Shown here one piece after another: positions 15,243-48,794 of a stretch of DNA of 64,000 nucleotides (the first letter of the stretch is position 1; every line of letters starts with the position of its first letter). The translations under genes were made by a program, and so were the position numbers. The stretch is from Sipunculus nudus (lineage: Eukaryota > Annelida > Sipuncula > Golfingiida > Sipunculidae): assembly GCA_026874595.1 (NCBI GenBank), contig CM049316.1, positions 57,111,676 through 57,175,675 of the forward strand, in the 5' to 3' direction. The notes under the pieces are model-generated. The model was not told where the DNA came from. It worked only from the letters and a program-made list of their open reading frames with translations, and did not search any database.

Positions 15243-16141
15243 TTACTGAGTCGACGGCAATGGGTACATCGTCTTCACTAGCTGAAACCATTAAAAAGAA
15301 AACCTTGAATACGCTGGTTGAGTAATTATCTTCATAAAGAGATTTTAACCAGCTAAAAGTTGCCGAAAAGAAAAACAAAGATATTAAAACCATTGCTGTA
15401 AATAGATAATATTTAAAAGTGTCAAGCTACACTGACCTCTTGCAGTCTGGCATATTCGTAGTGGGTGGGATCTTCGCCATATTCATGTTTGATTACATAT
15501 ATCAGCTGGTCATCAGTCATGACTGGGGCTGGGTCTAATCTATGATCCTTCATGAGCCATACCATGTATTCTTTGTAAGGATGACTGATAAGCACATGTT
15601 ATTTATGATTGTGTCTGTGAACATACGTCTCATCTTGAAACATTTACTCTGACCAAAACAAATTATTTATTATCTGATTTGTGTAGCAATAAACGTTTAC
15701 TTTTATATAAATTGATAACAGCGGCGAACAGGCGGACTGAGCAATCTGGTGCCAATGTATTTGATTCTTGAAGCATAATTTTAAAACTGTTCGTGGATGG
15801 CATTTAACTAACTCAAATACCGGAGCCTGTTTTGCAACTCCGACCACCCATACAGTAATTGTTATCCGATATATCAAAAAGCGGTATAATACTAATGTCT
15901 AATAATGGTGAAGAATTAAAGAAACACAAGATATGTATAATGATGACACCTTTCGTGGACTTCATTTAAATCATTTTAGCACTTGATAATGATAAAATTG
16001 GAAGCTGAAAGGACATATTTACCATAATCGATTATTCTCCTTACTCTTGTGTTCTCTCTTCATGACTTCCTGGTTACATCCATGATATTCTGCCACCTTT
16101 GCTAACCAGTCATTGTATTTATCATATTTTATGTCCCTTTC
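15243..16141 (-). CDS. Gene A exons 11-13: LDD region and C-terminus
   Basis: Exon 11 (16023-16141, 119 nt), exon 12 (15437-15584, 148 nt), exon 13 (15243-15281, 39 nt including TAA). A Cys codon split by intron 11 is followed by HPYKEYMVWLMKDHRLDPAP, which matches the HOIP LDD segment CQAHYKEYLVSLI...HSLDPA. The protein ends LVKTMYPLPSTQ. Candidate polyadenylation signals (AATAAA on the minus strand) lie at 15150-15155 and 14930-14935. Confidence 0.82.
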
Positions 16142-19100
16142 CTATAAATGTAAAGATAAAACATAATTTTCCAGACCATTCCTTAGTTCTTCCGTAGTTA
16201 CAGTGCACCAGTGTCAGTGCCGCCAGTCTGGAATATATTTTGAAAAGTATAACATCTTACAAGAAAACAATATTATATTTTCTGAAAAGGTTATGACAAT
16301 TTATAAACCGGTGCTGAACTGCATAGGCAGCTTTTGTATTTTACTTTTAATGATGCTTGTGAACAAGTTTCAGTTATTGTAATTGTGGCGATTTATATTA
16401 TAGGCATTTCATTCTTCTGAATATTCCCTCAATTTTTGGGGGAAGTCAAAAGTCATTCCAAAATATAGTAGTACTGTTACATTTGTCGCTCACGGCAAGA
16501 TCTGAAATATTCATGGAAAATAGCCTAAAACAATCATCTTGCTGCTGATAATGATGATTATGGGAGTTTTAATATATACAATTAAAAAATACTCCTGAAA
16601 CAGGGAATTAAAAATGATAAAGAGTCCCTCCTAATTTATCACGAAACTTTACAAAGTAAACAAAAGGCAGCATCACAATATTTCACTTAACACATACAAA
16701 TACTCACATCTAAAAAAGTTCTAATAAGGTCAAGTGAACACTGGTTAACATAGAATAGGCAATCACGCGGATGATGACAGTGCGGGTCTCGTGGGCATTC
16801 TTCATATTTCTGACATTCCTGTCAAAAGAATAACAAACCGTTTCCAAGGTTATAATAATTATATTTACTTGTTATTTTAGCTGATGGAGAATTACTTGTG
16901 CTTTGATGACATTCGTATATGAGCTGCATTTAAAGTCTAATTGATAAGTAAAAGAAAAACAAGTGACCCATAGGTCATGACGCTCAGCTGCCAAGCATGA
17001 CCTGCGACATCATGGGCTGAGATTCACAACTTCCAGTTAAATTTTGAAGACCCAATTTGCCAATATGTTGAAAATTTCTACGACAACAGAAATATATATC
17101 ACCTGTGTCTGGTTAAAACACAGTGAATTTATGGTCAGAGGAAAAATATTGATTGTTAAGCTATAAGCAACTATTCCCAGAGCTTGCTTGATACCTGTCA
17201 GTCTCAAAAGGAACACCACAAAGGGCAAATATAAGATCAACATATATAGCAAAAATCAAGGAAATCCATGCAAGAATTATTGAGAAATGGGTGCTTCTGT
17301 TTAAATTTTATTTAATACAAGCCAACTGTACTGCACCTGTATAAATGATGGTAATATTTATTAAGAAATATTTGACCTAATCCTTTGCAAGATAGGATTA
17401 ATATACTTCCAACTGCATTCACTTTAACGGTTCTTGAGATAATATAATCAAAAGGAATATGGTTGCCTGGTGGCCATATTCAACTTCTGACAGGTCTGAA
17501 ATCAGACAACAAACATTCTCTAAATTGGATCAAACACTGAAGAAAAATCACTGAAACTGCACTGAAAAAAAGGATTTCTAAGGTGGCTTACTGGCAGACA
17601 TAATGGATTTCTGACAAGTCAGACATTTGATATCACACATCCTCCAATAAGAGACCAAACTTGGGGCAAATTCTCCAAAGGATGGTACAGTAATGAATGT
17701 CCAAAACAAATCATATCAGATTTATAGATATCCAAATGTAAAAGTGTAAATCTAATATTTTTTATTATAACTCTGCTTTTCAATGGGGTCAGCAGGGTTG
17801 GTAAACTGCAAAACCTGAAAGAAAGGAAATGCAGAAAGCATGACTAAGAGTCTTATAATGAAAAAAAGCTATCCTTAATCTAGGTACATATCCACATATT
17901 ATGAGAACAAACACTTGCTTTTATATGTGGCGATTTATATATAAATATTCCAACATCTAGGAAACTAAGTTTATTGCTATGATTCCATTAAATAACCTGC
18001 AAAATGTTCCCATCATCTTATAAAGCAGTAGCTAAACTTTAATACTGTACTCTCATAGTCTTAATGCCTGGCTGAAGCAATCCGACAACTGTGTTTTTGT
18101 TATGCAGTAACGAGGTACTTATCACTCAGCCTTATCACTTAATAGGCTGATACAAAAGGGAGTCATATGTCACCAGTGTCACTCACAATTACAGCGACAC
18201 AGTGAGATGTACCAGCTGGATTGCAATGGTTATATATAAAAGAAAAATAGAGATGGTCTACAAAATAAGTTATTGCGAACATCCCTGACCAATGACCTTG
18301 GCCTTTTGCCCACATATCAACTGGATTCTTTCTAAATGATGGGTAAGTACTAACCACTTAAATCTGGTGTAATTACTTGGCAACCAAAGAGTGAATAACT
18401 TTGACCTGCAACCTTTAACCTCCTGAACAGCTGACTCCAAAATCAATCAGTTATTTCTTCAAGCAAAAAGACCCATAAATATGAAGTTTGGATCAAATTG
18501 AGTTATGCATAGATGTGGCATATGTGAAAGACTGAAGGTTTGGGTTGAACAGTTTCTCCAGAAATATGTTCACAAGCATTAAGAACAATTAAGTATTGTG
18601 GCCTTGAACTTTGACCTTTTGAACTCGACATCAATAGGCTTCTTCCCCTATTGGTAGGTAAGCCATATATGTCAGATGGAAGGTATAGATTGAAATGTTT
18701 ACCTGAAAATGTCTCCACATTAGAAGAGGGTGTGGTGAACTTGACCTTTGACCTCAAAATCAAGAGGTCTTTTCCCCTGTTGGCAGAGAATCGATATCAG
18801 TGCTGAAAGGTTTGGAATAAAAAGTCTTGCTTGAAATGTGTCCACAACCTTTTAAAAAATATGTTCACAAGCATTCAGAACAATATTGTGACCTTGACCT
18901 TTGACCTTTTGAACTCAACATTAATAGGCTTCTTCCCCTATTGGTAGGTAAGCCATATATGACAGATGGAAAGTATAGATTGAAAAGTTTGCCTGAAAAT
19001 GACTCCATGCAAGAAGAGGGTGCTGTGAACTTGACCTTTGACCTAAAAATCAACAGGTCTTTTCCCCTGTTGGCAGAGAAGCGATATCAGTGCTGAAAGG

Positions 19101-22100
19101 TTTGGAATGAAAGGTCTAGCTTGAAATGTGCCCACAACCTTTTCAAAGAAGTGGATCCTGTGACCCTGACCTTTGACCTTGTGACCTCAACATCTATAGG
19201 ATTCTTCACCCACTTAGTAGGTGAGTTATATGTGAAAAATCAAAGGTTTAGGATGAAAGGTTTGGCTTAAAATGCATCCACAGGCTTTTCAAAGAAGTTG
19301 GTTTTGTGACCTTGACCTTTGACCTTGTGACCTCAAAATAATTATGGTTCTTCCCCTGTTGGTAGGTGAGCTGTATGTGAAAGATGGAAGGTTTGGGATT
19401 AAAATTTTGGCTAAAAGAATTATTTCTGGGGGTGCAAACACACCCCATAACTTCGAGAATATATGTCGCAGTGACCTAATTTCAGGTTTGCAAGGAGATC
19501 TTTTTAGAACCTCTAAGACTGCATAGGGTTCATGGCCCTAGCCCCTACGGTTACGATTTGTGCCCTGCCAACGGACGGATGGCCGGCCGGACGGACAGAC
19601 GGAAGGACGACGGAGAAAGACCCATCGCTATAGCCCAGCATGACTGAAAGTCAGCTGAGCTAAAAATGATCTGTGGAAAAGATCATTGTCTCCCGCCTCT
19701 CATTAAAGTAGCGGGAAAAATGACTGGTTTAACATGCTTTAGGGGTCATCAATGTAAATTTAAGGTATGATTACGTGTTGACCTAATCCATGAAAAAAGC
19801 AAAGTAAAACAAATAAGGAATATAACAAGCATAATGGTAATTCCCTTTAATTGAAAACATGGTAAGAGAAACATGACAGGTTGGTAAGAAAATGATAACA
19901 TTTAGAATAATTTACCATTTCGAAAGGGCCTTTGCAGCCATCACAGAAACTCAAAGGACATGATATGCATTTTCTTTCCCCGAAAGCTCCCAATGCACTT
20001 TCGCAAGCAGACCCACACTTCGGACATCCTTCATGTATAACATATAACAAAAATTAGGAATTACATTTCAAAGAAAACAATTATTTGTAATATGATTAAT
20101 TGAATTAAATAGTATGTTAATGTGTCAGACTGACAATAGGTTAAAATATGTTTGTTTGCAGCAATTAGTTTTGTTCGTATATATAAATCGTATCTCAAAG
20201 AGAGTCACATACATACGTATATAATCTTGATCCGGCTTACTCTTGGCTTCAGCTTCTGAAGCAGTTCCCGGTGGCTGTAATGTTAACAAAAATTACTGTA
20301 TTGTTAATACAGATAACTGTAATGTTAAGACAGATAACTGTAATGTCAACACAAGTAACTGTTATGTTAAGTTAGACGACTGTAATAATATGACCACATA
20401 GATACCCTGACTCTAGGGTAATGTAAACAAAGGCGAATGTCATGTAGACAGATTTGGCTGTAACAGACAGATAGATAATTGTAATGTACTGTAAATGGTG
20501 GTAATTTCATATAAACATATAGGTGGCTATGTTTTTGTGTAAACACTATCATCTATAATTTTAAAGAGGCGATTATAGATGAAAAATGTTTTATTCCAGA
20601 GAATCTGTTATCACCATTACCTGAAGTCAGTGTTACAAAAGGGTTTTGAAAAGAGGGCATCTTTTTTTCTATTTTCTGGATGTTTTATGAAAAAAAAAAC
20701 CAATTGGTGATGTTCTCACACCTTGGGATCGTTCGAGGAACGTTGGACATCGGATGGCATCATACCCTCATTTTTTTCTGCTAACCCTGCATTATCATTT
20801 CCAGCACTGAGGAAACTATTTGAATCCTGTCTCTCACGATAAGCATTGTCGGTGAGAGAAAAGTAGCACATCAGGCATATGTTTGTGGTGCCTGGATTCA
20901 TGAAAGTGCAAGTAGGACACCTCTTTTCTTCAGGCCCCTTCTCTGTGCTAAATCCATTCTAAAAAAGATACACAATTATGCAAGTTACAAATGAAACGTG
21001 AAAGTATTAATAGATTCAATGCATATTTGAAACTAGAATACAAGCAGTCGACAAGGAACAACGTATGCCCCCCCCCCCCCCCCCGGGGCAGATGAGCATT
21101 GATAAAACCCTACAAGTATGTGACATCCGCGATGACAAAGTATCCCACGACGCACGGACGGACGGCACCACCAGACATATCCTATTATAAAAGCAAATAA
21201 CAACCTTTTGACGTGCACAATTTCAGGCTGTTATATCAAACCATTCCCAAACATGTGTGTTAATCAACAAATATAAACATACAGGTGGACAACAGTTGTT
21301 GATATAAACCACGATGGATGAATAGCAAAAGTTCAGGCCGATACAGCAAACCAATCCAGAGATAAGGGCATCAATGTATTCTATGAAAACGTCACAGTAG
21401 ATGGCGCCATCGTTCTTGTCTACGACAAAGCTATCAACGATGGATAACCATGCAAATTTCAGAATGTTACATCCACAAACTCCTGAGATATATGCAACTT
21501 TAATTAAAAACTGATTTATAGATGGGCACTTTGCGAAAACGGTTGTACGTGCTGCCACTTGTCTTGTGTACGCAAAAGTAGATGGACAAGCCAAAATTCA
21601 GGTCGCACACCTAACAGCTCTCGAGATAGTGCCATTAACACTATAAAGAAGCACAGATGGACACTTGGCAAAAAGTATTGTAGGTGGCGGTACCCATTTT
21701 TGTAAGGAACCATTTCACATATGATCCTATAAGATCCGTCCATGGGTCTCAGGGGAGTTGCCCGGGAAAGAACCCCTCGACTGCAGCGGGTCCCGCATAA
21801 AAAATAAGGATCTGTGAAACTCTGCGGATACAGTTAGACGGTTGGGCACGAGGCTGTTGATTTGACCTACCATTACTTGGTTTACGTCATGATCAGGAGG
21901 GGCTGGATGATCCAGAGGTTCAGCGCAGGATATACATAACTCTGCATCTGGCAAATTGATAAATTGGCAATGGTGACACCTCAATTCGGTTCCCAGAGAT
22001 TCTGTGAGGGATTCCTGAAACACAGTTAAAAACAGGACAAGTATATTCTCACCACTCTTGTTTTCGTTCTGTACTCATAATACTGAATTATGGGGGAATA

Positions 22101-25100
22101 CCTTATTTTTCCTGTAAGGTATTGTTTTCTGCACGCAGAAATTTGATAAATAAATCCTGTGCCCCTGTGTAAAGGTAAGGTGAAGCCTCATAAAAAAGTC
22201 TGGCATGAAAGCATGTCTTGGTATAATTCTTGCATGAAAGCGTGGCTAGGTAATCTATATACAATTATATCAAAATCATTATCCTTCATGCAATTTACGC
22301 TGAATGGCCTTTTAGTTAATGATCAATTGATTTTCTTACTTGAAATCCAAAATTTATTTTTAACAAAATAATAAATGAGCATCGGCATGTTCCAACAAAT
22401 CAAATAGTTTAACGACAAAATTACGTATAGATCTCACTTCTTCTTTGTTTATGTCTTGGTCCGAAACTGCGCACTCTTGACTACGAGACTGAGGAACATC
22501 CGATTTCGTGGCAAGGAGACAAAGTGCATCTGCCTGCTCCTTGGCATAGGGTTCTTTTATATTTAACTCCGGAACTGGGGGCCCGGGAACATTGGGTACC
22601 AAAACAAAGGACTCCAGGCCGTTTGGCTCGCAGGCACACTGATCTGCTACATCTGAAGCGGACATACGTTGGTGTGCACCATTTTGTTCGTAAACGTTAG
22701 GATCTCTGATATCTATCCACTTCAGCTTTTCAGGAATGTTGCCTTGTACCTCTGGAGTTGGAATCTCTACTTTTCCAAAGGACTTCTCTTGAGGACCATT
22801 AGGTTTTCTGTATGTAACAAGCGAAAACAGTATTCCCGAAAAGATTTAATTTTGATTAAGTCTCATTATGAAATATATATTTGACCCAGCAGAATGTTTT
22901 CCCACGTTTTTTAACACAGTATCCGTTCTTCGGTTTATTAATAAGCTCATATATTATAAAAGCACCAAGCTATTCAAGGAGCTTGGCTTTATGCTGCCTA
23001 CTCATATTAAATTTGGTGTCGCGACTAAAATGAAATGAAGATTTGATCGTAATTTGGTGCTAAAGGTATTTGAAAAGTGCTGCTTCTGGCTATTTAGCAG
23101 GTTAACCATTTGTTATTAGGTATTATGCTTTCATTGTGACTTGGGTTTTAAAACATAACTAGGCACACAAAACACTGTAGTAAGCCACAGAGTAAATTTC
23201 ATTTTGTGTGTGTGTGTGTGTGTATGTGGATACCTACTGGAACTGGGGAGGTACCAGACAGTCAAACAGATTGCCAAATGGATGAGACCCACTTAGATAA
23301 CATGTCAGCTCAGCTTCTGCTAGGTACAACTCTGCTGTCAGCTCTACCTTCTCTATGCAAACCGTTGGCTCTTCCTCAAACGTGAAAGCATCTTCATCTG
23401 CTCTGTATCCAAAGAGCTGCAGTATGTGAATGTGTCCCTGCAAACATATTTCAATATGATATTGCGAGTATGAGCGCACTGGGGAAAAATTATCATTAAA
23501 ATATCGTTAATTAATTATAGTGATGGATGCAAAACAGACATTGTCATGGACGTGTGGCGGCGGAATATGCATTCTCAAAGAAACTGGTAATTCTCATTGG
23601 CACATGCATTATCTTTATCAGCAGTGTGTTATTTATATATTTATTAAAAATACTTTACTGGCTTAAAATGAAACGGCCCGTTTTTAAGTTTTAGACATTT
23701 GATGGCAAAATTAATACACATTTTAACACACAATATTTACAAATCATTGTTTTCTTGTTTTTTTCTGACATCTTTTCTCTCTGAGGATCACATATCAATA
23801 TACATACGAATCTTTAAAATTGTCAATGAATCCCTGGTGTCGTTTTCATCAACACTGGGTTTCTAAAGTGTATATGCCCTGACACACTCAAAATAGATCA
23901 TGGGAACTTGTCACCAGAGGATTGTTATTTTGTTATTATATTGTATGTTTTAGTAGGGAGTATAACCAGATTATTATTTTGATAATTTACTGTATATTTA
24001 TAAGGGGTATCATGTTTAGATATTAGCGTGAGACCTTTGGTTAGAGAGCACACATGTTTCATTTGATGTTAATTTCGGTACAGTTTAATTTCGTAGGAGC
24101 CATCTCTGTTTGGCGGTCTCTATAGTAAAGGTGGTCTGTTAAAGACTTCAAAGGATGTGCACCTTTTTAGTTGGGTTTGATTTTCCGAGGTTTTTGTCTC
24201 TGGAGACGTGTCCATATCAAAATTTATGTAATAATTGGCAGTTGGCGGGAAGTGGTGATTGGCCGGAAGACGGTGGGGACTTGTGACGTCAGCAAGCATA
24301 TATAAGTCATGATTAAGATGATGTTCGCTACAACTGTCCCATCAGCGCGCCAGTTCGTGTAGCCCGACGATATCTGCAGTCCAGGAGCAGGTATGCGTGT
24401 ATCAGAATTTAAACAGCTGAAAGATGATGTCTTTAAGCGTAGATTATCAATGTCTGAGGTAGGCCACCATGATTTCTCTGTAACGAACTACACAGCGAGT
24501 ATCGCTTTCGCCGACGGATTGGGAAATCTGGGAATTAAACCTGTTGTGAGAGCTTTCAGGAACAGACCGAGGACATTAGTTAAACGCGTTACTGGATATT
24601 GCTGTGTGGGGCATTTTCGGTTACCTAGAGCTGGATGATTCCAGGAGACATCAGCTGTGAAAGACATTGACTCTAAGTCAAGATAGAATCGTCTGTGTGC
24701 TGCGTGAATTTTGCGTCTTGAGAGTTATTCCAGTACTCCAACGAGGGACTGTTGTTGGTCGGTGCTCCGTGTATCTAATGGGTGGACTGACTGTACTGTT
24801 AACACAACGCGAACAAACAGTAAGCTGGGCGACGCAGCATGTATCATGTGATCAGGAGAAGTGTAGACAAGGGACTACTCTGTGTACTTTGGTTCACGGA
24901 CTTGGTGTTTGTTTCTGTGATTATTATCGAACTGTTATCATCACCAGTGCTTGTATGTATGGAACGCTTCCCCAGAGAAACCTAAGTGTATCTTCTCTTT
25001 AATATATTGATGTGTTTTTTGTGAACTCATGACTTATTTATCTTTTGAAGTGTACGTATGCGTGGGACTCAGCCAGTTGATTTGACTGCTAAAAGAACCT

Positions 25101-25399
25101 GGTCGTTCACATCTCTAGTGGTGTTTCAGTACTCACCTCGATGTCTTTTAAGATATCCAGGTAGGTGATATCCGCGAAGCTTATATAGTCCCACATATCA
25201 CTTCGCTCTGCTGTTGGCTTCATTAATTCTCTACCCAGTGAGTACAACTGGGCTAACGCATGGTCAAGCCGTTCTCCCCAGCCATGTGCCTATGCGGATA
25301 AATATCACACAGTGATATAACTTTACTCCAACAGAGGTATACGTAATTTAAATGTCAATTAAAATGATAGCAGTTAATGTTTTCGTGTCATATACACAC

Positions 25400-25455
<56 letters not shown>

Positions 25456-26370
25456 ATACATCCTTTTATTGTACATATATCTAAAGCATCAGATGATGAA
25501 CCAGAAACAGGGAAATCATGCTTGAAATTGTTTATCTATGATTGCAAAATTTATTTTAGAGCAATACATATATATATTTATATATGTGTGTGTATGTTGG
25601 TGTGTGTGAGAGAGAGTGTGTGCACTACCCCCGCATCTGTTTACGGAACTTATTGCTATACTGAACGGCAGCATGAAGACGGTGTATAATTGAATTTCGA
25701 GAATCTGTACCATGTATTTTTCACTTTATTCGAACCTTCCTGTTGTCCATTTTACATGGGTCTCTACTGAAACGGAGATGTTTTTTGGCAATTAGCCTAT
25801 TCTCCCACTATGATATACTCATATCATAATTTATCCAAACATACCTTTGCATTCTTTTTTATCAGATCCTCCAAGTCCAGTTTCACATACTTATTTCCCA
25901 AAGAAACTTGCAGCTGGATAAAATCCCCCGGGAAAACCAGTTCTATCCCTTGTTGCAAAGCGTTTGCTACCGCTGATCGGATTCTTGAAGCCTCCTTGCA
26001 ACAAAAAATTAAAACAAATTAAAGAAATTGACTTCTGAATACCCGCTCAACCACATTGTCGGTACGTTTTTATTCATAATAGAGACAAGAATAAATATCA
26101 TAATAGAATTTAAGTAATAGAGATCAAGGACATGGTTAAAATATTATGTATTATAATTTGACCACGTTGTCCACGAAGACGTAATGACAAGTCCTAGGTC
26201 AAGGCCACTAAGGCTGATGTTAATGTTAGTAATAATAATAATAATTATAATAATAATAATATAAATTTCAAAACTATAATAACATGATCCGTCCATTTTA
26301 ACGTTTCCATATCAGGTTTATTTAATTCTGCTGTGTGATGACTTACCCTCATATCATCTTCAACGTCCAT
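15243..26370 (-). CDS. RNF31-like: Gene A: HOIP/RNF31-like PUB-NZF-NZF-RING2-LDD protein, predicted ligase-dead
   Basis: Hand-assembled CDS of 13 exons, 1866 nt, 621 aa. In transcription order: 26347-26370, 25845-25994, 25137-25289, 23238-23437, 22438-22807, 21871-22014, 20722-20958, 20217-20274, 19916-20028, 16708-16818, 16023-16141, 15437-15584, 15243-15281. Every junction is GT-AG and the phases agree throughout. Domains: PUB about 9-176; Ser/Pro/Glu-rich linker 177-299; NZF1 (Cys 312, 315, 326, 329); NZF2 (361, 364, 375, 378); RING2 447-506; LDD to about 609. In HOIP, RING2 carries the thioester cysteine and LDD positions the acceptor ubiquitin. Here HHPRDCLFY (498-506) and the YKEY...LDPA motif of the LDD are kept. 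RING1 and IBR are missing, and Phe461 occupies the catalytic cysteine position. I infer a non-catalytic ubiquitin or PIM-motif binding protein. The start MDVEDDMR matches the 24-nt first coding exons of B and C. An acceptor (ccattttatag) 14 nt before the ATG implies a noncoding exon upstream. Confidence 0.85.
16708..16818 (-). CDS. Gene A exon 10: second half of RING2 and start of LDD
   Basis: 111 nt, phase 0/0, acceptor tcttttgacag, donor gtgagt. It reads ECQKYEECPRDPHC then HHPRDCLFYVNQCSLDLI. The HHPRDCLFY string is the diagnostic HOIP RING2/LDD junction. HOIP has about nine more residues between the preceding Cys and HHPRDC, so this loop is shortened in both A and B. Confidence 0.88.
16961..19666 (+). 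mobile_element. CTCAGCTGA-family repeat filling intron 9 of gene A
   Basis: Starts CCCATAGGTCATGACGCTCA and ends GACTGAAAGTCAGCTGAGCT. It occupies 2.7 kb of the 3.1-kb intron between exons 9 and 10, opposite in strand to the gene. The 3' part has the (ACGG)n-like stretch (GGACGGATGGCCGGCCGGAC) typical of the family. The centre carries a degenerate tandem repeat (18,500-19,350). Confidence 0.7.
18480..19370. repeat. ~292-bp degenerate tandem repeat (TTGACCTTTGACCT type)
   Basis: Two good copies offset by about 292 bp (TTGACCTTTTGAACT at 18609 and 18901; TTGGCAGAGAA about 18779 and 19071) and two shorter, poorer ones. Each unit contains the motif GACCTTGACCTTTGACC, one or two times. Short open frames across it are repeat artefacts. 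Confidence 0.75.
19916..20274 (-). CDS. Gene A exons 8-9: linker and first half of RING2
   Basis: Exon 8 (20217-20274, 58 nt) encodes PPGTASEAEAKSKPDQDYI. Exon 9 (19916-20028, 113 nt) encodes CPKCGSACESALGAFGERK then CISCPLSFCDGCKGPFEM. Spacing C-x2-C-x15-C-x2-C-x4-C-x2-C equals that of HOIP RING2 from Cys871 to Cys901. HOIP has its catalytic Cys885 at the eleventh of the fifteen spacer residues; here that residue is Phe461, followed by Gly-Glu instead of Met-His. An extra Cys454 sits at the fourth spacer position. The donor of exon 8 could also be 4 nt downstream, but only the choice given keeps frame. Confidence 0.82.
20722..20958 (-). CDS. Gene A exon 7: RanBP2-type zinc finger 2 (NZF2)
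   Basis: 237 nt, phase 0/0, acceptor tttttag, donor gtgtga. KRC-x2-CTFMNPGTTNI-C-LM-C (Cys 361, 364, 375, 378). It has the Thr-Phe pair after the second Cys and the Met between the last two Cys, the signature of ubiquitin-binding NZF fingers such as Npl4's. The rest of the exon is a hydrophilic tail (ERQDSNSFLSAGNDNAGLAE...). Confidence 0.83.
21040..21720. repeat. Fragment of the GGCGCCA repeat family in intron 6 of gene A
   Basis: Contains repeated units of the form ACAGTAGATGGCGCCATCG, TTTCAGAATGTTACATCC and GAGATA, like those at 59.1-59.9 kb, after a 17-base poly-C (21068-21084). A 123-codon minus-strand frame here is a by-product of the repeat. Confidence 0.55.
21871..22014 (-). CDS. Gene A exon 6: RanBP2-type zinc finger 1 (NZF1)
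   Basis: 144 nt, phase 0/0, acceptor gtgtttcag, donor gtaggt. Pattern LRC-x2-C-QFINLPDAEL-C-x2-C (Cys 312, 315, 326, 329). The Thr-Phe pair and downstream Met that many NZFs use to hold ubiquitin are replaced by Gln-Phe and Ser, and the usual Trp two residues before the first Cys is Leu. Ubiquitin binding by this finger is therefore doubtful; a protein-binding role is possible. Gene B has no equivalent finger. Confidence 0.8.
22438..22807 (-). CDS. Gene A exon 5: disordered linker
   Basis: 370 nt, phase 2 in and phase 0 out, acceptor cttgttacatacag, donor gtgaga. It encodes residues 177-299, hydrophilic and rich in Pro, Glu, Gln and Asp (KPNGPQEKSFGKVEIPTPE... to ...SDQDINKEE), with no recognisable domain. 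It replaces two exons of gene B (70 + 285 nt), so one intron was lost here or gained in B. This is the most divergent segment between the paralogues. Confidence 0.75.
23238..25994 (-). CDS. Gene A exons 2-4: PUB domain
   Basis: Exon 2 (25845-25994), exon 3 (25137-25289) and exon 4 (23238-23437), residues 9-176. They read EASRIRSAVANALQQG..., then AHGWGERLDHALAQLYSLGR..., then GHIHILQLFGYRADEDAFTF. The last resembles the PUB core in which a hydrophobic helix is followed by a GY/GF and an acidic turn. Exon 4 ends on the donor gtaggt inside a split Gln codon; one base pair further on lies an in-frame TAG, so the junction is forced. Intron 3 (23438-25136) holds a solo LTR. The PUB assignment rests on similarity to HOIP and PNGase; the groove residues that bind partners were not mapped. 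Confidence 0.8.
24107..25109 (+). mobile_element. Solo LTR in intron 3 of gene A
   Basis: 1003 bp starting TGTTTGGCGG and ending GGTCGTTCA, flanked on both sides by the same six bases CATCTC (24101-24106 and 25110-25115), which I read as the target-site duplication. Inside are a CRE (TGACGTCA, 24284-24291) and a TATA box (TATATAAG, 24299-24306), as expected for an LTR promoter in sense on the plus strand, antisense to gene A. No gag or pol remains. A 6-bp duplication fits BEL/Pao or Gypsy, not Copia. It ends 21 bp before the exon 3 donor (25131-25136). The 81- and 111-codon frames inside are not genes. Confidence 0.65.
25401..25443. repeat. (TA)n microsatellite
   Basis: TA units in intron 2 of gene A, with a looser TA/TG stretch to about 25,620. 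Confidence 0.9.
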
Positions 26371-26384
26371 TTTCGAAATTCATT

Positions 26385-27134: not shown

Positions 27135-28046
27135 TGTATCCGCCAAAACGAAGTTTTGCGGATACTATGCTTTTGACCGGGTTCCGCCGCCGCCGCCGCC
27201 GCCGCCGCGTTCGTTTCCGGAGAACTCCTCTGAGACTACTGGGCGGATTTTTCCGAAACTTACACAAATTATCGGGTCACATGTGAACTGGTGCCTAACC
27301 AAGTGGCCTTGACCTCTGACCTTTCCTCTCTCCCCAGCGTCCGTTTGTACGTCTAGTTCCACACATAAACCCACACATCTCGGGAACCGTTTGACCGATC
27401 AGGAAATTTTTTTACACAAATGTAGCCCTTGGATAGCTTTATATCATACACAAAAAAAGGTGGCGCCACCTGCAACCATATTTGCGTCAATCCGTACTTT
27501 TGCCTTGGGTTAAAATCACTCATATCTCTGCAGTCGTTTGACGAATTCACCTAAAATTCGGCATGCGTATACAACCTAGATAGCTTTCTTGATTTTATGA
27601 CCTACATTCACGTTAACGCTGCAGACATCCAAGCTCATATCTCGGGAACCATTTGACGAATCAGGAAAAAATTTTACACAAATGTAGCCCTTGGATGGCT
27701 TTATAACATACACAAAAATGGTGGCGCCACCTGCAGCCATTTTTGCACAGCGTCCATCTGTTTGTTTGCCTTGGGTTAAAATCACTCATATCTCTGCAGT
27801 GGTTTGACCAAATTACCCGAAATTCGGCATGCGTATACATCCCGCATAGCTTTCTTGATTTTATGACAGGTTGCGCCACCTACATTCACGTTCACGCTGT
27901 AGACATCCATGCTTATATACACAGCGTCCATCTGTTTGTCTGCCTTGGGTTAAAATCACTCATATCTCTGCAGTGGTTTGACCAAATTACCTGTAATTCG
28001 GCATGCGTATACATCCTGGATAGCTTTCTTGATTTTATGACAGGTG

Positions 28047-30784: not shown

Positions 30785-31188
30785 GTGGCGCCAGCTTCAT
30801 TCACGTTCACGCTGCAGACATTATTGCTTATATCTCTGGACTCGTTTGACCAATCAGGAAAAAAAAATTACACAAATGTAGCCCTTGGATAGCTTTATAA
30901 CTTACACAAAAATGGTGGCGCCACCTGCAGCCATTTTTGCACAGTGTCCATCTGTTTGTCTGCTGTGGGATAAAATCACTCGTATCTCTGCAGTGGTTTG
31001 ACATTTCCACCTGAAATTTTGCATGCGATACATATTGGATAGTTTCTCTTCAAATAACAGGTGGCGCCACCTACAATCATGTTTACGTGGCAGAGATCCA
31101 TTCTAATATGTAACACGTAACTCTATTTCCCCTTGCCACTCAATCCAAGCCTCAATTCAGCCGTCCTACTCTGATTTTGGCGGATACA

Positions 31189-32763: not shown

Positions 32764-32821
<58 letters not shown>

Positions 32822-35519: not shown

Positions 35520-35521
35520 TA

Positions 35522-36441: not shown

Positions 36442-36443
36442 TA

Positions 36444-38006: not shown

Positions 38007-38837
38007 TTATCTCATTGGACAGTTCTTCTGCACGAACTGCAAGATAACGGTACATCATTATATCAGCAGTGTGTATACAGAAACATATTTCACTTAATGT
38101 ATCCAGTTCAAAGATCAGCGTAGGTTATCCAAAAGGAAAAAATAAAGACAGTGTCTTTCGAAAATATAATATTTGATACGTAACATCTGAAACATTGAAA
38201 TGTGTTAATGAAGTATGATTTAGTCTTGAGAAAAAGTGCGGTGATTCAACTACACTGATTAATAATAAACTCTGTCACTGATACCTCGAGCAATGCACGG
38301 CCACTCATTTCCGGGGCTTCAATGTCAACCTCCCGTCGAATGATGGTTTTCAGCTGCTGTGGGTTCATTATAACAGCTGGGTCTACGTTGTGCTTATTAA
38401 TAATGCTGATAAGGTACTCAGTGTAGGGGTTGCTGTAAAGACATTCACAGTTTCAAATATATTCTTTACAGAAGTGACAATATGTTTGTAGACATATCAA
38501 ATATTTGATTATATACACATGTGCACAATACACATATAAATATATAAAGTGGAATGGATATAATAGTTAACAAAACATATTTTGCATCACGTATCATAAA
38601 GCAAGATTTTAAACAACAGAGACGGTAAGTTTCCCTTGTACCAAACATGTTTGTACAAATCTAAATAACTTAGTCAAAACCAGGTCAATGAATTGAGGAG
38701 AAAATGAATGGTATTTACCATAGCCAATTCTTTAATTCGCTGGTGCTTTCCCTATGAATAACTTTTTCCGAACATTTCCTTCGTTTGGCTTCCATTTTCA
38801 TCCAATCTACATACTCCTTACAAGCTAACCCGTGAGT
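38007..38837 (-). CDS. Gene B exons 11-13: LDD region and C-terminus
   Basis: Exon 11 (38719-38837, 119 nt), exon 12 (38285-38432, 148 nt), exon 13 (38007-38036, 30 nt including TAA). The split Cys codon is followed by NPYTEYLISIINKHNVDPAV. The last exon, FVQKNCPMR then stop, has a clean acceptor (cgttatcttgcag) and aligns with LVKTMYPL of gene A, which is why I preferred it to a competing open exon at 38115-38186. Confidence 0.76.
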
Positions 38838-41800
38838 CTTAGGGAAAATGGACAAAACAGGGAAATAAATGAAACTGTTTTTTAATCATAATTTTACACC
38901 ATTAAATGTACATGTATTTCGTTCATCACCGAATATTGCATGACTCATGACACATTTAGACTATATTAAATATGAAAAAGGAAACAAAGTGAACAACTTA
39001 GAATGTCCAAAGGTATCTCTTATAACAAGGAGTGCACAGTAATATGGATACAGGTGTACAGTGGGCAAACTGAAGCCCCCCAAATTATACAAATGCTGCG
39101 CTCGGACAAATACTTTTATTTAAAACGGGACACACTCTTTATGAAACGCTTCTTGAAGACCCGATTTTATTCCATATCCTTCTACTTGTGCATGATAAAA
39201 GGTTAATATGTGTATTAGGTGCATGTGCCAAACGTGTATACATATATGTTTTACGTACATATTAATTTATTATATGTCATTACACTATAATGATGTAAAA
39301 TAAATGTAATATATATGTATAATGTAGCATTTGTATGGTCAACTGACACCGAAGATTATGTTGTTTTCTTCACTATAGTCTAGTGCCGTGCCTTACTTTA
39401 TAAATGAACATCACACAAGTATCAATACACAATATATTAAAGAAGAAAAACGTTTCGTCAGTAGGGACTTTTTATTGTGAATGAACACAAAAATATATGC
39501 ATTATATCTTTTATGCATTATATCTAACACTTTGCCAGTTTTGAAACAATAGCACTCATTTTTCTTCCAAATTAACATGGCGACATGGTCTATGTTAACA
39601 TAAATTATTATAAATGTATGTTTGCCCACACATATTTCATTTCTGAGCTAAACAAATATGGATATATGGCTGGAAGTATTACCTGTTTTACTCAAAGTAA
39701 AATTTACCATTATGCATGTAAGAATGAAGCTGTAGGTGGCACTGCTAGCCTTGTGCTCGAATTAAACTATCCACCAGCTAAACGAATATCAAATTCAAAG
39801 GCAATATATGGGCTAATCTGTGAGCTTATATCTAAAATGCATTATACTTTTAATTCAGAATATTGTTTATACTGATTATACACAGTATAAATATTTTGTA
39901 AGAATATCTAACTATAAACTTCATTTAGGATATAGTGCCAAAATAATGGAGGCAAAGAATGAGGCAAAATACCATGGAACAGAGAGTATGCATCGATGCT
40001 ATTTAGCTAACGAATAAAAAGAAATTCCCTAGAAATTGTTATGCAATTTTTTGGAAACAATGCCTGTCATTTAAAATGAACTGTTTGAAAGCTTACTTAC
40101 ACTAAGTAGTTTCCTTAAGATTTTTGTATTGAAGTTTCGCAAGTAGAAAACACAGTTTCTCGGGTGATGACAGTGAGGACCTTTTGGGCAGTGCCTATTC
40201 CTTCTGCAGTTCTACAAAGGATCATATGAGTGACTCACTGACAAACTGGTTTATAATATGGACCACTCAAACACAGATATAAGAAAGTATACTCTTGGCA
40301 TGACAAGAAAACAGTGATCAAACATACATTCTGATTTATCAAAATAATGACACCCTAGGAGATTCTTCCGAAGTTAAAACAAACAGACTTTTATTTTTAA
40401 ACCAATATGTCTTGACTTTTACATACCGTCTCAAATGGTGAACTGCACGCATCGCAAAATCTATAGTCACAAGAGGTACATCTTCTGTCTTCAAAAGGGC
40501 CAAGGTTGGGTTGGCATTTTGATCCGCATTTGAGACAACCTAAGACAAACCATGATACGTGTGGTATTCTATGCGTGAAAAACATATAATTAAAATTATA
40601 TAACTATTAAATCATTTTAAGTTAAACTTTGTTTTAATTTTGACACTAAGTATTTATTTACGTACACATAAACATTCTTTAATATATGTATGGTTTATGT
40701 GTAAAATTGAAGGCGAATGGCTTTAAGCTAGAATACATGCGTGAGAATAGTTCCCTTGGAATATAATTAATATTTATGAATAATAAATAACTTACGTGAT
40801 TTGTCTTTCAAAAAATAATCACAGGCGTCATTGATTTTCAAAGTTATGCTAACCTACAACAGAAAACAATTGTCGTTTTTTTATTTATTAAAGTTTTGGC
40901 AAATAAACAGGCGAAAGATAATAAACTCATCCGTGTTTTATTACATATAGGAAAAATTCTGCCATTTTGGTCATATGTTAAGTTTTGGCTTTGGTGGCCT
41001 ATTATACATTATGTATAAGGTGGATTTAAGAAAACGTATTTAATATGTTTTAGAATACCAAAAGGAAAACCTTAGAAACCTTTCTTGGATTTTGACCCGA
41101 AAACTCTTGGACGATGTCAGTTCATAGTTTTCAGCTTCTCCAACAGCTCCCTCAGTGTTTATATTATAGTTTGGATCCTGTTTATCGACTGTGAATTTTG
41201 GCTCTGGGGCATACTCGTTTCCAAGAAGTGATGTATAGCACATTTCGCAGATGTTCGTTGTAACGGGGTTAACATACGTGCAAGCAGCACATTGTCTTTC
41301 ACCAATGGTTTCCTCCTGATTATCGATGCCCTGTAAGGTAATCATGCTTACACTTTCAAATCACCTATGCTCATGAGTTCTTAACCTGCTCAGAAGCCAA
41401 GTTTGGCCAGTGGGTGATGTTCTCAGTTATATCCCTTCTCATGCAGTCAGTTTATTGAAATTACAACGACAATACATGCTTAACATATGCAAATCCTACT
41501 ACATAGGTATGATAAAACCGACTACAGGGTATTACATTTGGTCCGTATGGTTGGGTAATAATTTTTAACTATATTCCGCTAGAAACAGATATTAATTTAC
41601 ATTTTAAAATTCTGCAACTATTTCCACCTCTAAGTGAATATTCCTGAGACAGACCCCTTTCACCTTTAACTTAAGATTAAGCAGGATCATTCAGTTGGAA
41701 AATAAATTAAAAGGGCATTAAATGTAATTCTTCTCGGAAGCGTGGCGCTCAAGAAGGATATGATAAATTATAGCAAATATTAAAACAATGTCGTAGTGTG

Positions 41801-43497: not shown

Positions 43498-43537
<40 letters not shown>

Positions 43538-45951
43538 CTAAACGTGAGCATGTTCACTATTATTGAGTAGTGCACTGCAACCTGTCAAAATTAATACAGG
43601 AGGAAGTTGCTCTCAATACATCCAAATGATAATTTTTTCTCAAATTGCAGCAGACGCAAAATGCAAATATCACAGCAATCTAAGTTGATACAATTTCTCA
43701 GCGTGGTAAATCAGCTGTGTCATGACTCCTGTTTATCTAGTGATCCGCCATAACCTTCCCGACTGGTCACAAGCTCTTCTCACGAATATCCACAGCCGCA
43801 GTCAGGTAAGCGACAGGGGGAATGAGCATAATATATCATTAAATAAAGGCTCTAACTGCAATTAGTAAAAAAATTAAGTTGTTGAAAAAGTGTAACAGTG
43901 TCACGAATTTGCCAAAATATCAACGTTTCAAATATGAATAAAATAGCAAAATTACTGATAATATGGTGTGATTCCACCGTTGCAACGAGGGTGTGGTATA
44001 CTCAGCAAATTGCTTCAATATTGCTTACATTCTGATGACAAATTTTCTAATTTTTTTACACCGCAGTTGGGGGGGGGGTTCGGTTCCCCTCCCAAGCCCT
44101 TCCCCTTCAGTCGGTACCACACTCGACAGTGGCGAATCCTTGAAAACACTTGTCCCCCTCCCCCAACTGGGTTCTGGATCCACCACTGATAACATTTATA
44201 ATAATATTAAAAATAATAATAATAGTATTTTTATATTATTATCACAATATACTGAAATATGGGTGTATGTTATTTAATGTGGTATACCCCATTACAAGTG
44301 GTCTCCGTAACTCACCCAACTTCAAATTTGATCGAGATTTTGTTGATAATGCATCTGCTCTGAAAAAACGGAGCATCTTTTTTTAATTATATTTTAGATA
44401 TCACGCTCATTATGGTAAAAGTTAACGGACGCCGGTCCGTCGAACTGACGGACGGACGGTATTTGTGATGAAAATAGCCCATTAGTCTGGAGGCTAAAGA
44501 GGTGTGTGTGTGTTGGGGGGGGGGGTATCATCCTAAAGTATGCTCACCCATTTAAGGTTAATCATACAGATATCTGTTGACAGTGGCTTCGCTAATCGTA
44601 CGCCTGCATATGATATGGATTGTTTCGCGTCAGTCGTAAAACAAGTGACACAATGTTACGTTATTTAGACCCATTGCAACATGTGGTCCTTATTCTTGTT
44701 TTGCCAAAAGGTTACATACAATAACTACGATTGTTTTCGGGGACTAATCGTGGTAGCAGATAACCGTAGCGCAAGTGTGACTGGACCCTCAATCATCCCG
44801 TGTTTTCTCCATTGATGTAATCACACGGCATTTAACCATTTTTAGTATTTACTCTGGTAAATAATTATATCATAATAGAGAAGAACTTTTTAGGTAATCG
44901 ATAAGAAGAGATATCTATTTACTGCTTATATTTAATGTACCTTCCTTATTCCATTACCAGTGCTGGTTTTCCGTTTCTGTATACTTAGGGTACAGATATC
45001 AATTCTATTATTTACTAATTAAACTTATAAACTTAAACTTATATTTCGAAAACTGTTGCGATACACTGATTATTGCTGGCAAATTTTACATGTAAGGATG
45101 GGCTTTAATTTAAATGTATTCAAAGACTAAGTGAAAATAGCTCAGATATCTGCAGAACTGAAACATTGCAAGGGAAACTTATTTTCAAAAACACTTCAAG
45201 CAAAATTGCATAAGCGTTCCATTTTCCATTCAACAGAGTACAGATATTTTTCATTCGGAAAAAAATTATTGTGCGGACATGTCTGTTATGATTAAAAGCT
45301 GTATATACAAAGTATTTGAGCCACAAGCCCTATCCTACCATTTTCGAGGAGTTCGAACCATTTGACGTATTTTCTATGGATCCCGCCATGCGACTCGGCG
45401 GTTCATTCTGCGATTCTTTCTCAATATCTCGCCATATTCTCTAAAACAGGTAGAGCATGTATTATTCCGAAAAAATCGATCAACCGATTTGAAACTTCGA
45501 TATGAAAATTAGTCTTACCACTGCCATGGTATTCGTATCAGTAGTAGTTTAATCCTTTTAGTAAATTGAATTGAACCATTTCTTGTGTCCTTGTATCTGC
45601 TCTCTCTAAATAATGCATCTGGTATGAACATGTATATGCAATGTGATTATATTTTTATCATAATTCTCATAAGATCACAACGCATGAATTACTGTAAATA
45701 ATGTCTATATATTGTTGTAGAGTATTCCGTAGCCGGGTATTTCTGTCATATTGTATATGATAATATATGCGGAAGTTCCGTGTAAATAAGGATTTTGTGT
45801 AGGTGTACTTACATAATTAATAGTTTTAAAGGTTCCTCAAAATTCAGCAAATTATGAATAATTTTGGAAATTGTCAATACAATAATAGTTAGGAGATTCG
45901 AAATAACCATAGTTTAAATGAAATGTGATTATATTTTTTCGTAATGAATTA

Positions 45952-45982
<31 letters not shown>

Positions 45983-46409
45983 CATTATTATAGCTGCTGC
46001 AATGACTTCTAATTTTTCATATTCATGTAATAACTATGTATATACTGCGTTATGGATAATGTGAATAAAGGTCGTCCTCACCTTCATTCTTTTGGGCAAT
46101 TCATGTATTTTCCCATATTTATGAGCTGATGAATGACCGTTATTGGGTTCTGTGACAACGTAACCACGAGTTTCCTTAATGGGTAGACCACCTTTCAGCG
46201 TGGAACATGTAACTAGGCTTTGCTGTAACGGATTCTCTGGGGCCTGGGATCTTTGCCTTCCCCCGGCATGACCACATGAAACTATTGTTCTCTCTGTGCC
46301 ACTGACGGGGCTTTCTGGAATTTCTTCATTTCCCCGCATATTTGTGTCCGATGAACCAACTGAAGCCTTTAAGAACACAGATTTTTTTTAGGAATAAGGT
46401 TTGATATAA

Positions 46410-46466
<57 letters not shown>

Positions 46467-48794
46467 CTGGTACATGACATTATTTTTATATCTGTTTTAT
46501 GTCTTTTCTGTCTTTGTGCGTGAGAGAGAAAGCGAGAGAGGGAAGCAAAACAACAATACCTGTGCAATAACATTTCCATATCTAATCTTTCTTTGTGGTA
46601 GTGGGTGCGCGGAAGTCCCAGGTAACTCTCTGTTCACAGATTAAAATTCGTCCGTGTCATCCAGCTGATTAATGCTTAAACACCATTATGTTATAGACAT
46701 ACCTAGAGCACTATATTGTTCACATATTATAAAGCGACCAAAAATACTTCTGATGTGGCTCATATAAATCTTGAGGTCCGCTAATAATTTAAGGCTGTCA
46801 CACGTGTCACTTCAGGTACATAATAGATGTCTATGACATGTTCTTGTTACTTTCTATTGAAATTTTGCAACAGGCACTGAGACATGCCGGAAATGATAAT
46901 GGTAGGTAGAAAATTCCATGGGGAATTAATATGGATTCTACATTTGAACTTGTAAACAAGAACTTCACTTACTGCATTTTGAAAAGCAGAAATATTGAAA
47001 CAGGTTAACGCAGGCAATATAAGGATACATGGCGCATGTTATACAGAATGTCACAACTGACCTGGCTGTGCCCCGAAGCAGATTTCTGAATATATTAGGC
47101 TTTGGATGCGTTCCCTCCAGGAATTCAGAGAGCTCGTATTTTGCAATGACTATCTCGGAAAGGATCTGGACAACTTCTGTAATGTCTGGCTCGGCTTTAA
47201 GATATAGTCCATCCTCTCGAAGATTTACATATCCAAGAGCCCAAAGAATATCGAAATGACCCTGTGAGTGATATCAAGTTTCTTTGAAGATAACATAACA
47301 ACCTTTTTTTCAGTTTCTACTCCAATAGATGTTTTACTTTGTGAATTAGGATTAACATGAAACAAGTGTTTAATATACATCGCTTGAGTCTTGCTTCTCC
47401 ATTAAAACATGTTTATCACCTAAATAATTTTTAAAATATTATAGGCGGTTATAAGAAAAGGTCGCCCCAATTCTTAATACTATCTTTTCAAGCTGCAAAT
47501 TGATTCACAGTCTTTCAGCTTCGAAAACGTACAAGACCATTTATTTAGAGAAACGAGAAGTTGAACAGTTATTGCTCTTGCCTTAAGATCGGCCAATGTG
47601 TCTTTGTATATTTTGCTTTTAAATTGGACAACGTCCCATCCTGGTTGTCGTTTCATGGGTATCGTGATTAAATTCAGTCCTATTTCCACTAAGCTGCAAA
47701 ACCCATTAATCAGACGACTGACCCACTGTTCCTCCTGAATTCAAATAAATTTTGTATATGTTTATTTGCAAAACACTGTCTGTTTTTAACAGTATGCACC
47801 TTATGTAGCATGATGATAATTTCGATAAGATATCATATTACTACTTAACCTAGCAATAAATATACCATTTATTCTCTTTCGGCTTAAAGTGAGATTACCA
47901 TGGGTTTTATTTCAAACTTCATAACGATCCCGGAGTACGTTTTCCTCATATAACATCAAATTGGATTTCATATCCATTCTGACAGAAGAAACAGAAACAC
48001 AATACAATCTTACCGTAGCATTTTGAAGAATGAGAGAGTCCAAATTTATCCTTGGATATTTCTCCCGGACAGTTAACGATAACTGCAGATACTGTCGTGG
48101 AACATGCGGAATTACGCCTTCGTCTAGCGACTCGGCTACGGAATTCCTAATTGTGTTCGCCTCCTGTTGAGGATATATGACTGCTTATATAAACCGTATA
48201 TGTAAATAGTTAACTGTGATAAACTGATTGAATATATATTCAAATGTACCCTAGGAGCAGGATAAATGTTGCAAGATCACTATTTAGAAACATTGACCTA
48301 TTTGCTTTTAAGGGTGGTGTTGGAACATTTTACATTTAATACAAATAATGAGTATTAAAAATGGTTTGAATATGGTACTTAGTACATCTATCACTCAACA
48401 AAGAAAGCTTAACGTATATCAGTTATACATTTTTTGTACTAGCCAAGATATAAATACAAAAACAAAATATAAATACATACAGATGTTATCACATTTAATA
48501 ACGGAGTACATGCAATTCCTTCATTGTGGTAAAATGACAATGATAACAAAGGTTGACAGCGCATATATATCAGAATTGTGAACTGAAAAGGATGACGTAG
48601 GCTGTAAAATCAGTGCATCAGAAATTGATAGAAAGAACATGTATGAAGACCCAAAATGCCAATATTAGATGTAAGACAAAATTACTCCTCAAAAATAGCG
48701 TTATGTGGTAATAAAACATAGCAACGTTAAACATCAATCATTGAGAGTTTCAAAGCTCTTAAAAACTCACATTCTTATGCAGAAACACGTCCAT
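38007..48794 (-). CDS. RNF31-like: Gene B: HOIP/RNF31-like PUB-NZF-RING2-LDD protein, predicted ligase-dead
   Basis: Hand-assembled CDS of 14 exons, 1797 nt, 598 aa. In order: 48771-48794, 48014-48163, 47582-47734, 47062-47261, 46560-46629, 46082-46366, 45339-45440, 41097-41330, 40796-40853, 40427-40539, 40101-40211, 38719-38837, 38285-38432, 38007-38036. Domains: PUB about 9-176; polar linker 177-328; one NZF (Cys 342, 345, 356, 359); RING2 427-486; LDD to about 589. No RING1 or IBR is present. Phe441 replaces the catalytic Cys of HOIP, with Glu-Asp following. HHPRNCVFY and YTEYLISIINKH..VDPA mark the RING2/LDD core. It is diverged from A (PUB exons mostly differ) yet conserves most exon lengths exactly. 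Weak points: exon 7's donor (gtcaaa) and exon 6 (no homologue outside this locus). Intron 3 has a GC donor. Start MDVFLHKN; a strong acceptor (tatttttttcag) lies 28 nt before the ATG. Confidence 0.84.
40101..40853 (-). CDS. Gene B exons 8-10: RING2 with Phe at the catalytic position
   Basis: Exon 8 (40796-40853, 58 nt), exon 9 (40427-40539, 113 nt) and exon 10 (40101-40211, 111 nt) have the same lengths as in gene A. Exon 9 reads CLKCGSKCQPNLGPFEDRR then CTSCDYRFCDACSSPFET. Cysteine spacing is identical to gene A and to HOIP RING2. The catalytic position is Phe441, and the extra Cys434 aligns with Cys454 of A. Exon 10 reads CPKGPHCHHPRNCVFYLRNF. Confidence 0.83.
41097..41330 (-). CDS. Gene B exon 7: RanBP2-type zinc finger (NZF)
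   Basis: 234 nt, acceptor ttaccttacag. RQC-x2-CTYVNPVTTNI-C-EM-C (Cys 342, 345, 356, 359), clearly homologous to NZF2 of gene A (NP-TTNIC core). Thr-Tyr replaces Thr-Phe and the Met is kept, so ubiquitin binding is plausible. The donor used here (CGG then gtcaaa) is weak but is the only one found that keeps phase 0, and it gives 78 codons against 79 in A. Confidence 0.75.
41331..45338. other. Intron of gene B between exons 6 and 7
   Basis: 4 kb. Contains a 36-bp direct duplication (about 42,486-42,555, GATGAATAGGG units), three spaced copies of CAGTGTGCAAAATGTCCTCG (42,730-42,820), a (TA)n at 43498-43534, and a poly-G/GGATCC repeat scrap near 44,070-44,190. No hidden RING1 or IBR exon (no clustered C-x2-C open frames) was seen. 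Confidence 0.5.
43498..43534. repeat. (TA)n microsatellite
   Basis: About 18 TA units. Confidence 0.93.
45339..45440 (-). CDS. Gene B exon 6 (tentative), takes the place of NZF1
   Basis: 102 nt open frame, phase 0/0, acceptor ctgttttag, donor gtagga. It encodes RIWRDIEKESQNEPPSRMAG then SIENTSNGSNSSKM. It sits where gene A has its NZF1 exon but contains no cysteine. Position, phase and splice sites support it; there is no sequence homology to confirm it. If skipped, the frame stays open. Confidence 0.5.
45953..45990. repeat. (ATT)n microsatellite
   Basis: About 10 ATT units with one ATC. Confidence 0.85.
46082..46629 (-). CDS. Gene B exons 5a and 5b: polar linker
   Basis: Exon 5a (46560-46629, 70 nt) reads ELPGTSAHPLPQRKIRYGNV after completing an Arg codon. 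Exon 5b (46082-46366, 285 nt) starts ASVGSSDTNMRGNEEIPESP and ends PKRMK at donor gtgagg. Exon 5a is required: without it the phase-2 end of exon 4 cannot join the phase-0 start of 5b. Together they correspond to the single exon 5 of gene A. No domain is recognised; it is rich in Ser, Glu, Pro and Gly. Confidence 0.68.
46405..46462. repeat. (TA)n then (GA)n microsatellite
   Basis: About 20 bp TA followed by about 36 bp GA, in the short intron between exons 5a and 5b of gene B. Confidence 0.93.
47062..48163 (-). CDS. Gene B exons 2-4: PUB domain
   Basis: Exon 2 (48014-48163, 150 nt), exon 3 (47582-47734, 153 nt), exon 4 (47062-47261, 200 nt). They encode EANTIRNSVAESLDEG..., LTVREKYPRINLDSLILQ, EEQWVSRLINGFCSLVEIGL, and GHFDILWALGYVNLREDGLY. 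Exon 4 ends on a good donor (gtcagt) in phase 2. Exon 3 ends AAG then gcaaga, a consensus GC-AG intron donor; a GT donor giving the same 51-codon length as gene A does not exist nearby. Confidence 0.78.

Follow-up and report, generated by a model that had tools for sequence, protein, structure and literature searches.

A tandem array of HOIP-like genes without RING1 and IBR, and with a predicted inactive RING2, in Sipunculus nudus

A 64,000-nucleotide stretch of the genome of the sipunculan worm Sipunculus nudus (assembly GCA_026874595.1, contig CM049316.1, here C11; C11:57111676-57175675, referred to as the window) carries two neighbouring genes, A and B, that resemble the RING-between-RING (RBR) ubiquitin ligase HOIP (RNF31) in PUB, NZF, RING2 and LDD and lack RING1 and IBR. 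They raise the question of what a HOIP-like protein does with only these parts. The window, the tandem array of related copies around it and the other HOIP loci of the genome (1.43 Gb in 153 contigs) were analyzed. The products of genes A and B are probably non-catalytic, ubiquitin-binding decoys or scaffolds from an old tandem clade of HOIP paralogues turned non-enzymes.

HOIP-derived genes without RING1, IBR and UBA

Both genes lie on the minus strand within window positions 15243-48794 and are readable exon by exon. In phmmer searches against the PDB, the PUB regions of A and B matched human HOIP/RNF31 only (E 2e-7 and 2e-10, respectively), as did their RING2-LDD regions (E 1e-12 and 9e-14). 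A hidden Markov model search, proposed as a check in the first-pass annotation, agreed in part: the Pfam LDD model (PF18091) cleared its cut-off in B and narrowly missed it in A, and the Pfam PUB model scored under its cut-off in B and was not listed in A. Protein-database searches returned a sole relative, the RNF31-like protein of Ruditapes (P0001), which has the full UBA-RBR-LDD arrangement; the database seems poor in animal proteins. Both genes are HOIP-derived, with the domain order PUB-NZF-RING2-LDD.

No match to RING1, IBR or UBA was found in the window. When P0001 was used as the query, its six matches in the array all fell within residues 445-605, with none to UBA, RING1 or IBR. A genome-wide query with the RING1-linker-IBR part of the canonical gene (E<=10) gave 36 matches, none of them in the array; 33 lay on other HOIP regions of C11 and C16 and three elsewhere. 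Furthermore, 12 RING1, linker, IBR and UBA queries against 159,720 bp of array loci, some of them overlapping one another, gave no match at E 1e-3 (12 matches at E<=1, best 0.038). In the control, 60,030 bp from other HOIP loci that likewise overlap one another in part, E 1e-3 was attained in 8-10 loci by every RING1, linker or IBR query. The UBA controls were weaker, with three UBA queries reaching this level in 2 of the other HOIP loci each. Overlooked RING1 or IBR exons in A and B are rejected by the window, array-locus and genome-wide searches. With the PDB matches and these empty searches, the initial description of tandem HOIP/RNF31-like genes that retain PUB, NZF, RING2 and LDD and lack RING1 and IBR is confirmed.

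A short exon stands where HOIP has its IBR-RING2 linker exon. Between the NZF exon and RING2, both genes have a 58-nt exon, and the introns around it in gene B measure 243, 256 and 215 bp, as had been stated; the 243-bp value depends on a weak donor at 41097. In the canonical gene, as we read it, the exon before RING2 is entered in phase 0 and left in phase 1, and so is the 58-nt exon of either gene. These two exons share place, length and phase, and their sequences have no clear likeness. Among the other array copies (cited by locus number), a 55-58 nt counterpart was matched in L035 (E 0.002) and also found in L036, L038, L061, L071 and L072, where 0 of 100 shuffles per interval were as good. 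The short exon is doubtful in L070 (5/100 shuffles as good) and was not recognised in L073 (42/100) and L074 (36/100).

An altered RING2 active site

The RING2 alignment is gap-free around the active site, and the active-site cysteine of HOIP, Cys885, aligns to Phe in both A and B. The same holds across the array: all 13 RING2 exons found there lack Cys at position 885 (12 Phe, and Leu in L038), and His887 is replaced by Glu, Asp or Gln in 12 of 12 copies (Glu in A, Asp in B; the frameshifted L037 was left out). Outside the array, Cys885 and His887 are kept in 10 of the 10 RING2 loci read, an eleventh match (C11:18940606) having been left out of the readings, and Cys885 is also kept in Ruditapes. 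Every one of the 13 array exons carries a new Cys at HOIP position 878; this position is Phe in nine of the ten loci read outside the array, His in the remaining one and Tyr in Ruditapes. The catalytic form thus usually combines Phe878 with Cys885 and the array form Cys878 with Phe885, a reciprocal exchange. In the main RING2 exon, all six cysteine positions are retained by 12/12 array copies (L037 left out).

Cys885, His887 and Gln895 are described as a catalytic triad in which replacing any one residue inactivates the enzyme (PMC3940038), and C885A HOIP is reported to give no activation of an NF-kB reporter (PMC7125101). Similarly, Parkin C431F, the same active-site Cys-to-Phe change, is reported as a loss-of-function disease mutation (PMC3305615). 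Human HOIP RING2-LDD reportedly retains some activity with UbcH5C when RING1 is absent (PMC6963773), and the loss of RING1 would therefore not by itself decide the question. Since both Cys885 and His887 are lost, the array proteins are not expected to be normal RBR ligases, and the RING2 of A and B is predicted to be kept as a fold only and to be catalytically dead. The first-pass annotation had concluded that these paralogues cannot act as normal RBR ligases, and this is supported, by the loss of Cys885 and His887 rather than of RING1 alone. Its statement that RING2 is kept applies to the fold only and fails at position 885.

The acceptor site is changed as well. Arg935 and Asp936 are reported to contact the acceptor ubiquitin, and their Ala mutants to lose linear chain formation (PMC7125101). 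Both residues are kept in all 11 comparators (the ten other loci and Ruditapes); in the array, Arg935 is kept in 10/13 copies and Asp936 in 1/13 (L071). Gene B keeps Arg935 only, and gene A neither.

A conserved NZF motif and an altered PUB pocket

The Thr, Phe/Tyr and Met residues of the NZF (T-F/Y...M) are kept in 11 of the 11 copies read, with L037 and the finger of copy 9 left out. NZF domains are reported to bind ubiquitin via a surface of T and F/hydrophobic residues (PMC9294000), and mutation of T14, Y15 or M26 in TRABID NZF1 to break ubiquitin binding (PMC4386640). Ubiquitin binding by the array proteins is plausible because the NZF keeps this motif. Gene A has an additional NZF-like finger with QF instead of TF (window 21877-22014), which is nearly invariant in L036, L070 and L072 (C.HCQFINL.DAELCISCAEPL) and looser in L037 and L074.

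The pocket of PUB that receives the PUB-interacting motif (PIM) is intact in the canonical HOIP of this genome, which keeps Tyr82, Asn85, Lys99, Asn102 and Val104. Gene B keeps Asn85 only and gene A none of the five; position 102 is Ser in gene B and again in L053, and the pocket is altered in all three array copies read. N102D in human HOIP is reported to abolish OTULIN binding (PMC4017264), and gene A naturally has Asp102. Among the binding partners proposed earlier, ubiquitin is plausible through the NZF motif, and binding of p97, OTULIN or SPATA2 by PUB through the PIM pocket is not supported and was rejected, as both genes carry replacements in the pocket.

Gene models and the rest of the window

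Gene A was recognised in 12 exons with 611 open codons that end at the stop codon at 15243, and the short exon that should open its coding sequence was not found. In our model, gene B runs from an ATG at 48794 to a stop at 38007 over 522 codons, with an uncertain exon 5 acceptor for which 46310 was chosen among several in-frame candidates. Shared exons have the same length in A and B (150, 153, 200, 58, 113, 111, 119 and 148 nt), and the two proteins are 33% identical. The exons are as follows.

Gene A
25845..25994, minus: exon 2, PUB region, N-terminal part
25137..25289, minus: exon 3, PUB; PIM-pocket positions 82/85/99/102/104 are L/E/S/D/T
23238..23437, minus: exon 4, PUB end
22438..22807, minus: exon 5, linker
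21877..22014, minus: NZF-like finger, QF instead of TF (CHHCQFINLPDAELCISC), kept in other array copies
20722..20958, minus: NZF (CPTCTFMNPGTTNICLMC)
20217..20274, minus: 58-nt exon, immediately 5' of the RING2 exon
19916..20028, minus: RING2 exon; Phe codon 19982-19984 for Cys885, extra Cys codon 20003-20005 (position 878)
16708..16818, minus: RING2 end (HCHHPRDC) and LDD start; positions 935/936 are N/Q
16023..16141, minus: LDD part
15437..15584, minus: LDD C-terminal part
15243..15281, minus: last exon, stop

Gene B
48771..48794, minus: exon 1, ATG, MDVFLHKN
48014..48163, minus: exon 2, PUB region, N-terminal part
47582..47734, minus: exon 3, PUB, GC-AG donor; PIM-pocket positions 82/85/99/102/104 are I/N/Q/S/I
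47062..47261, minus: exon 4, PUB end
46082..46310, minus: exon 5, linker, acceptor uncertain
41097..41330, minus: exon 6, NZF (CAACTYVNPVTTNICEMC), weak donor 41097
40796..40853, minus: 58-nt exon, immediately 5' of the RING2 exon
40427..40539, minus: RING2 exon; Phe codon 40493-40495 for Cys885, extra Cys codon 40514-40516 (position 878)
40101..40211, minus: exon 9, RING2 end (HCHHPRNC) and LDD start; positions 935/936 are R/N
38719..38837, minus: exon 10, LDD part
38285..38432, minus: exon 11, LDD C-terminal part (PF18091 above cut-off)
38007..38036, minus: exon 12, stop

The long repeat-filled intron described earlier for gene A is present (3097 bp) and follows the first RING2 exon instead of preceding it. 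Within it lies a two-copy tandem repeat of 290 bp (18562-19147). Elsewhere in the window, a second two-copy tandem repeat of 266 bp occupies 27377-27867, and positions 8762-11039 hold tandemly arrayed units of 180/359 bp (about 12.8 copies at 180 bp, 76% match). On the plus strand, in the interval that separates the two genes, open frames that overlap and contain Cys-rich stretches (28892-29568) gave no Pfam match and are possibly mobile-element remains. A Pfam search of six other open frames in the window gave none at E<=0.01, and an Rfam search of the window none above gathering scores.

An array within an expanded HOIP family

The array spans about C11:56.85-57.38 Mb. Most of it is on a single strand, and a few finger-like matches lie further left. 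Genome-wide searches, in which only the best candidates were scored so that the counts are lower bounds, gave at least 83 matches with the gene B query and at least 72 with gene A, and both place the window inside the array. At least 13 array RING2 exons were found, twelve by these queries and one (L037) separately, and all 13 were read. Other array copies have PUB or NZF matches without a RING2 match. A tree of RING2 and the next exon, made without L037, sets the 12 array copies apart from the other rows by a branch supported at 100/99; with the trait positions masked, support for the array clade is 100/97.

The P0001 query gave at least 55 exon-level matches genome-wide. The canonical HOIP lies at C11:16.61 Mb, and a large group of matches falls at C11:18.7-19.18 Mb, with further ones at C11:66.41 Mb and at C16:27.55 Mb. 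Six surround the window at C11:56.99-57.36 Mb, and a single match hits a long open frame on C7. Ten distinct RING2-bearing loci were read outside the array. The matches at C11:18.7-19.18 Mb form a second HOIP-paralogue array in both orientations, with single loci at C11:66.41 Mb and C16:27.55 Mb; across these (L006, L010-L016, L018, L019, L021-L033) there are RING1-like exons, and the catalytic Cys is intact where read. Judged from such matches, this genome has an expanded set of HOIP genes proper. For Aplysia, an in silico study gives a single HOIP (PMC9334734). No RING1/IBR-less, catalytically dead HOIP family is described among the open-licence literature matches listed, which agrees with the initial remark that no described family has this layout.

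Probable decoys or scaffolds, and the alternatives

An old clade of HOIP paralogues would have been tandemly duplicated and have become non-enzymes. The NZFs would bind ubiquitin chains, and the folded PUB and RING2-LDD would be used as contact or structural parts. In ubiquitin-dependent innate signalling of the NF-kB type, the array proteins may then, as decoys or scaffolds, be competitors or modulators of the animal's own catalytic HOIP-type ligases. They would not enter the linear ubiquitin chain assembly complex (LUBAC) through a UBA, nor recruit OTULIN or SPATA2/CYLD. Most frames and RING2 cysteines persist across the array, and the ratio of nonsynonymous to synonymous substitution (dN/dS) on conserved blocks is 0.27, 0.41, 0.31, 0.11, 0.13 and 0.22 for six copy pairs; the copies look maintained by selection, and those that are well preserved are unlikely to be pseudogenes. 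The NZF is the best-conserved part: over the same nine copies, mean identity reaches 0.73 in the last NZF, against 0.56 in RING2 and 0.51 in the LDD block.

Several points weigh against this picture. The dN/dS values come from short aligned blocks chosen for alignability, which biases them downwards, and three further pairs, all with gene A, are saturated at synonymous sites. That RING2 is less conserved than the NZF could be a sign of diversification and not of weak constraint. Decay is seen in two copies: L037 (C11:57199500-57206499) has a frame break in RING2 and has lost NZF cysteines, and L039 (C11:57051200-57058199) has a stop in an LDD exon. L074 (copy 14) is without one Cys next to HHPR, in the exon after RING2, and together these three copies indicate that the array turns over. 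One of the three L073 fingers has Ser for the aromatic residue. The additional Cys at position 878, shared by all copies read, might point to new chemistry. Finally, the decoy role and the pathway are what we infer from sequence.

Some of these points lend themselves to other explanations. The array might be a decaying set of truncated HOIP duplicates without function, in keeping with the RING2 frame break and lost NZF cysteines of L037, the LDD-exon stop of L039, and the weak NZF donor and uncertain exon 5 acceptor of gene B. This is unlikely, however, given that the frames of gene A are open through 12 exons with conserved phases, that the short exon recurs in several copies, that dN/dS is below 1 and that the six RING2 cysteine positions are kept in 12/12 copies. 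A moved nucleophile, with Cys878 replacing Cys885 and taking ubiquitin from an E2 or another E3 so that the proteins would still be ligases, would fit the presence of Cys878 in 13/13 array RING2 exons and 0/10 other loci read, its reciprocity with Phe885, and the reported UbcH5C activity of RING1-less HOIP RING2-LDD (PMC6963773). The triad residue His887 is nevertheless Glu, Asp or Gln in 12/12 copies, Asp936, required for linear chains, is lost in 12/13, RING1 is missing and Cys878 may be structural only; we consider such an enzyme a slim prospect. The same low expectation attaches to the idea that the Cys878/Phe885 exchange marks a RING1-less, HOIP-derived ubiquitin-transfer module expanded as an immune-effector family.

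The more serious competitor, although clearly a minority view, is that the array proteins are accessory subunits that join catalytic HOIP paralogues, supply NZF/LDD surfaces as SHARPIN and HOIL-1L do, and raise or redirect ligase output. Partners are at hand, as the genome holds several Cys885-bearing HOIP paralogues and RING1 exons; the RING2-LDD fold seems maintained; and accessory LUBAC subunits are reported to act through NZFs (PMC11555115). Against it, no interface was recognised, and the UBA by which HOIP joins its partners is missing. A decoy or scaffold is favoured over an accessory subunit because this UBA, used in LUBAC assembly, is gone. An inhibiting (decoy) and an assisting (accessory) role are not separable by sequence, and decoys or scaffolds are what we favour. 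The least probable alternative is another job without a link to linear ubiquitin, such as a general ubiquitin receptor: HOIP-specific acceptor-site and PIM-pocket residues are lost and the NZF is best kept, but positive evidence is lacking and the architecture is that of HOIP.

Relation to known systems and significance

The array proteins are like HOIP/RNF31 in the order PUB-NZF-RING2-LDD, the exon phases at RING2, the PDB matches and the RING2 cysteines. They are unlike it in having no UBA, RING1 or IBR, in the replacement of Cys885, His887 and mostly Asp936, in the altered PIM pocket, and in the short exon that their genes have where HOIP has an IBR-RING2 linker exon.

SHARPIN has no ligase module, and SHARPIN and HOIL-1L carry UBL domains. 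Like the putative role of the array, both are NZF ubiquitin-binding proteins described as tuning LUBAC (PMC11555115), but they are without a HOIP-type PUB or LDD, whereas the array proteins are HOIP-derived. Parkin C431F is the same RBR active-site Cys-to-Phe change with loss of function (PMC3305615), but it is a disease allele of one intact RBR, and the array is a fixed gene family without RING1 and IBR. TRIM pseudoligases are likewise E3 folds reported without detectable ligase activity (PMC11992055), on a different fold with a single RING. The expanded inhibitor of apoptosis (IAP) family of oysters, bivalve apoptosis regulators, combines expansion with novel domain architectures (PMC8917759) in another family and with other domains.

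With at least 10 HOIP loci that have the catalytic Cys and at least 13 array copies that lack it, this genome would offer a natural experiment on HOIP parts without catalysis, and the Cys/Phe exchange allows a clear biochemical test. To our knowledge, HOIP is single-copy in well-studied animals and is the maker of linear ubiquitin there. The array is a candidate route by which an invertebrate may diversify the control of NF-kB-type signalling.

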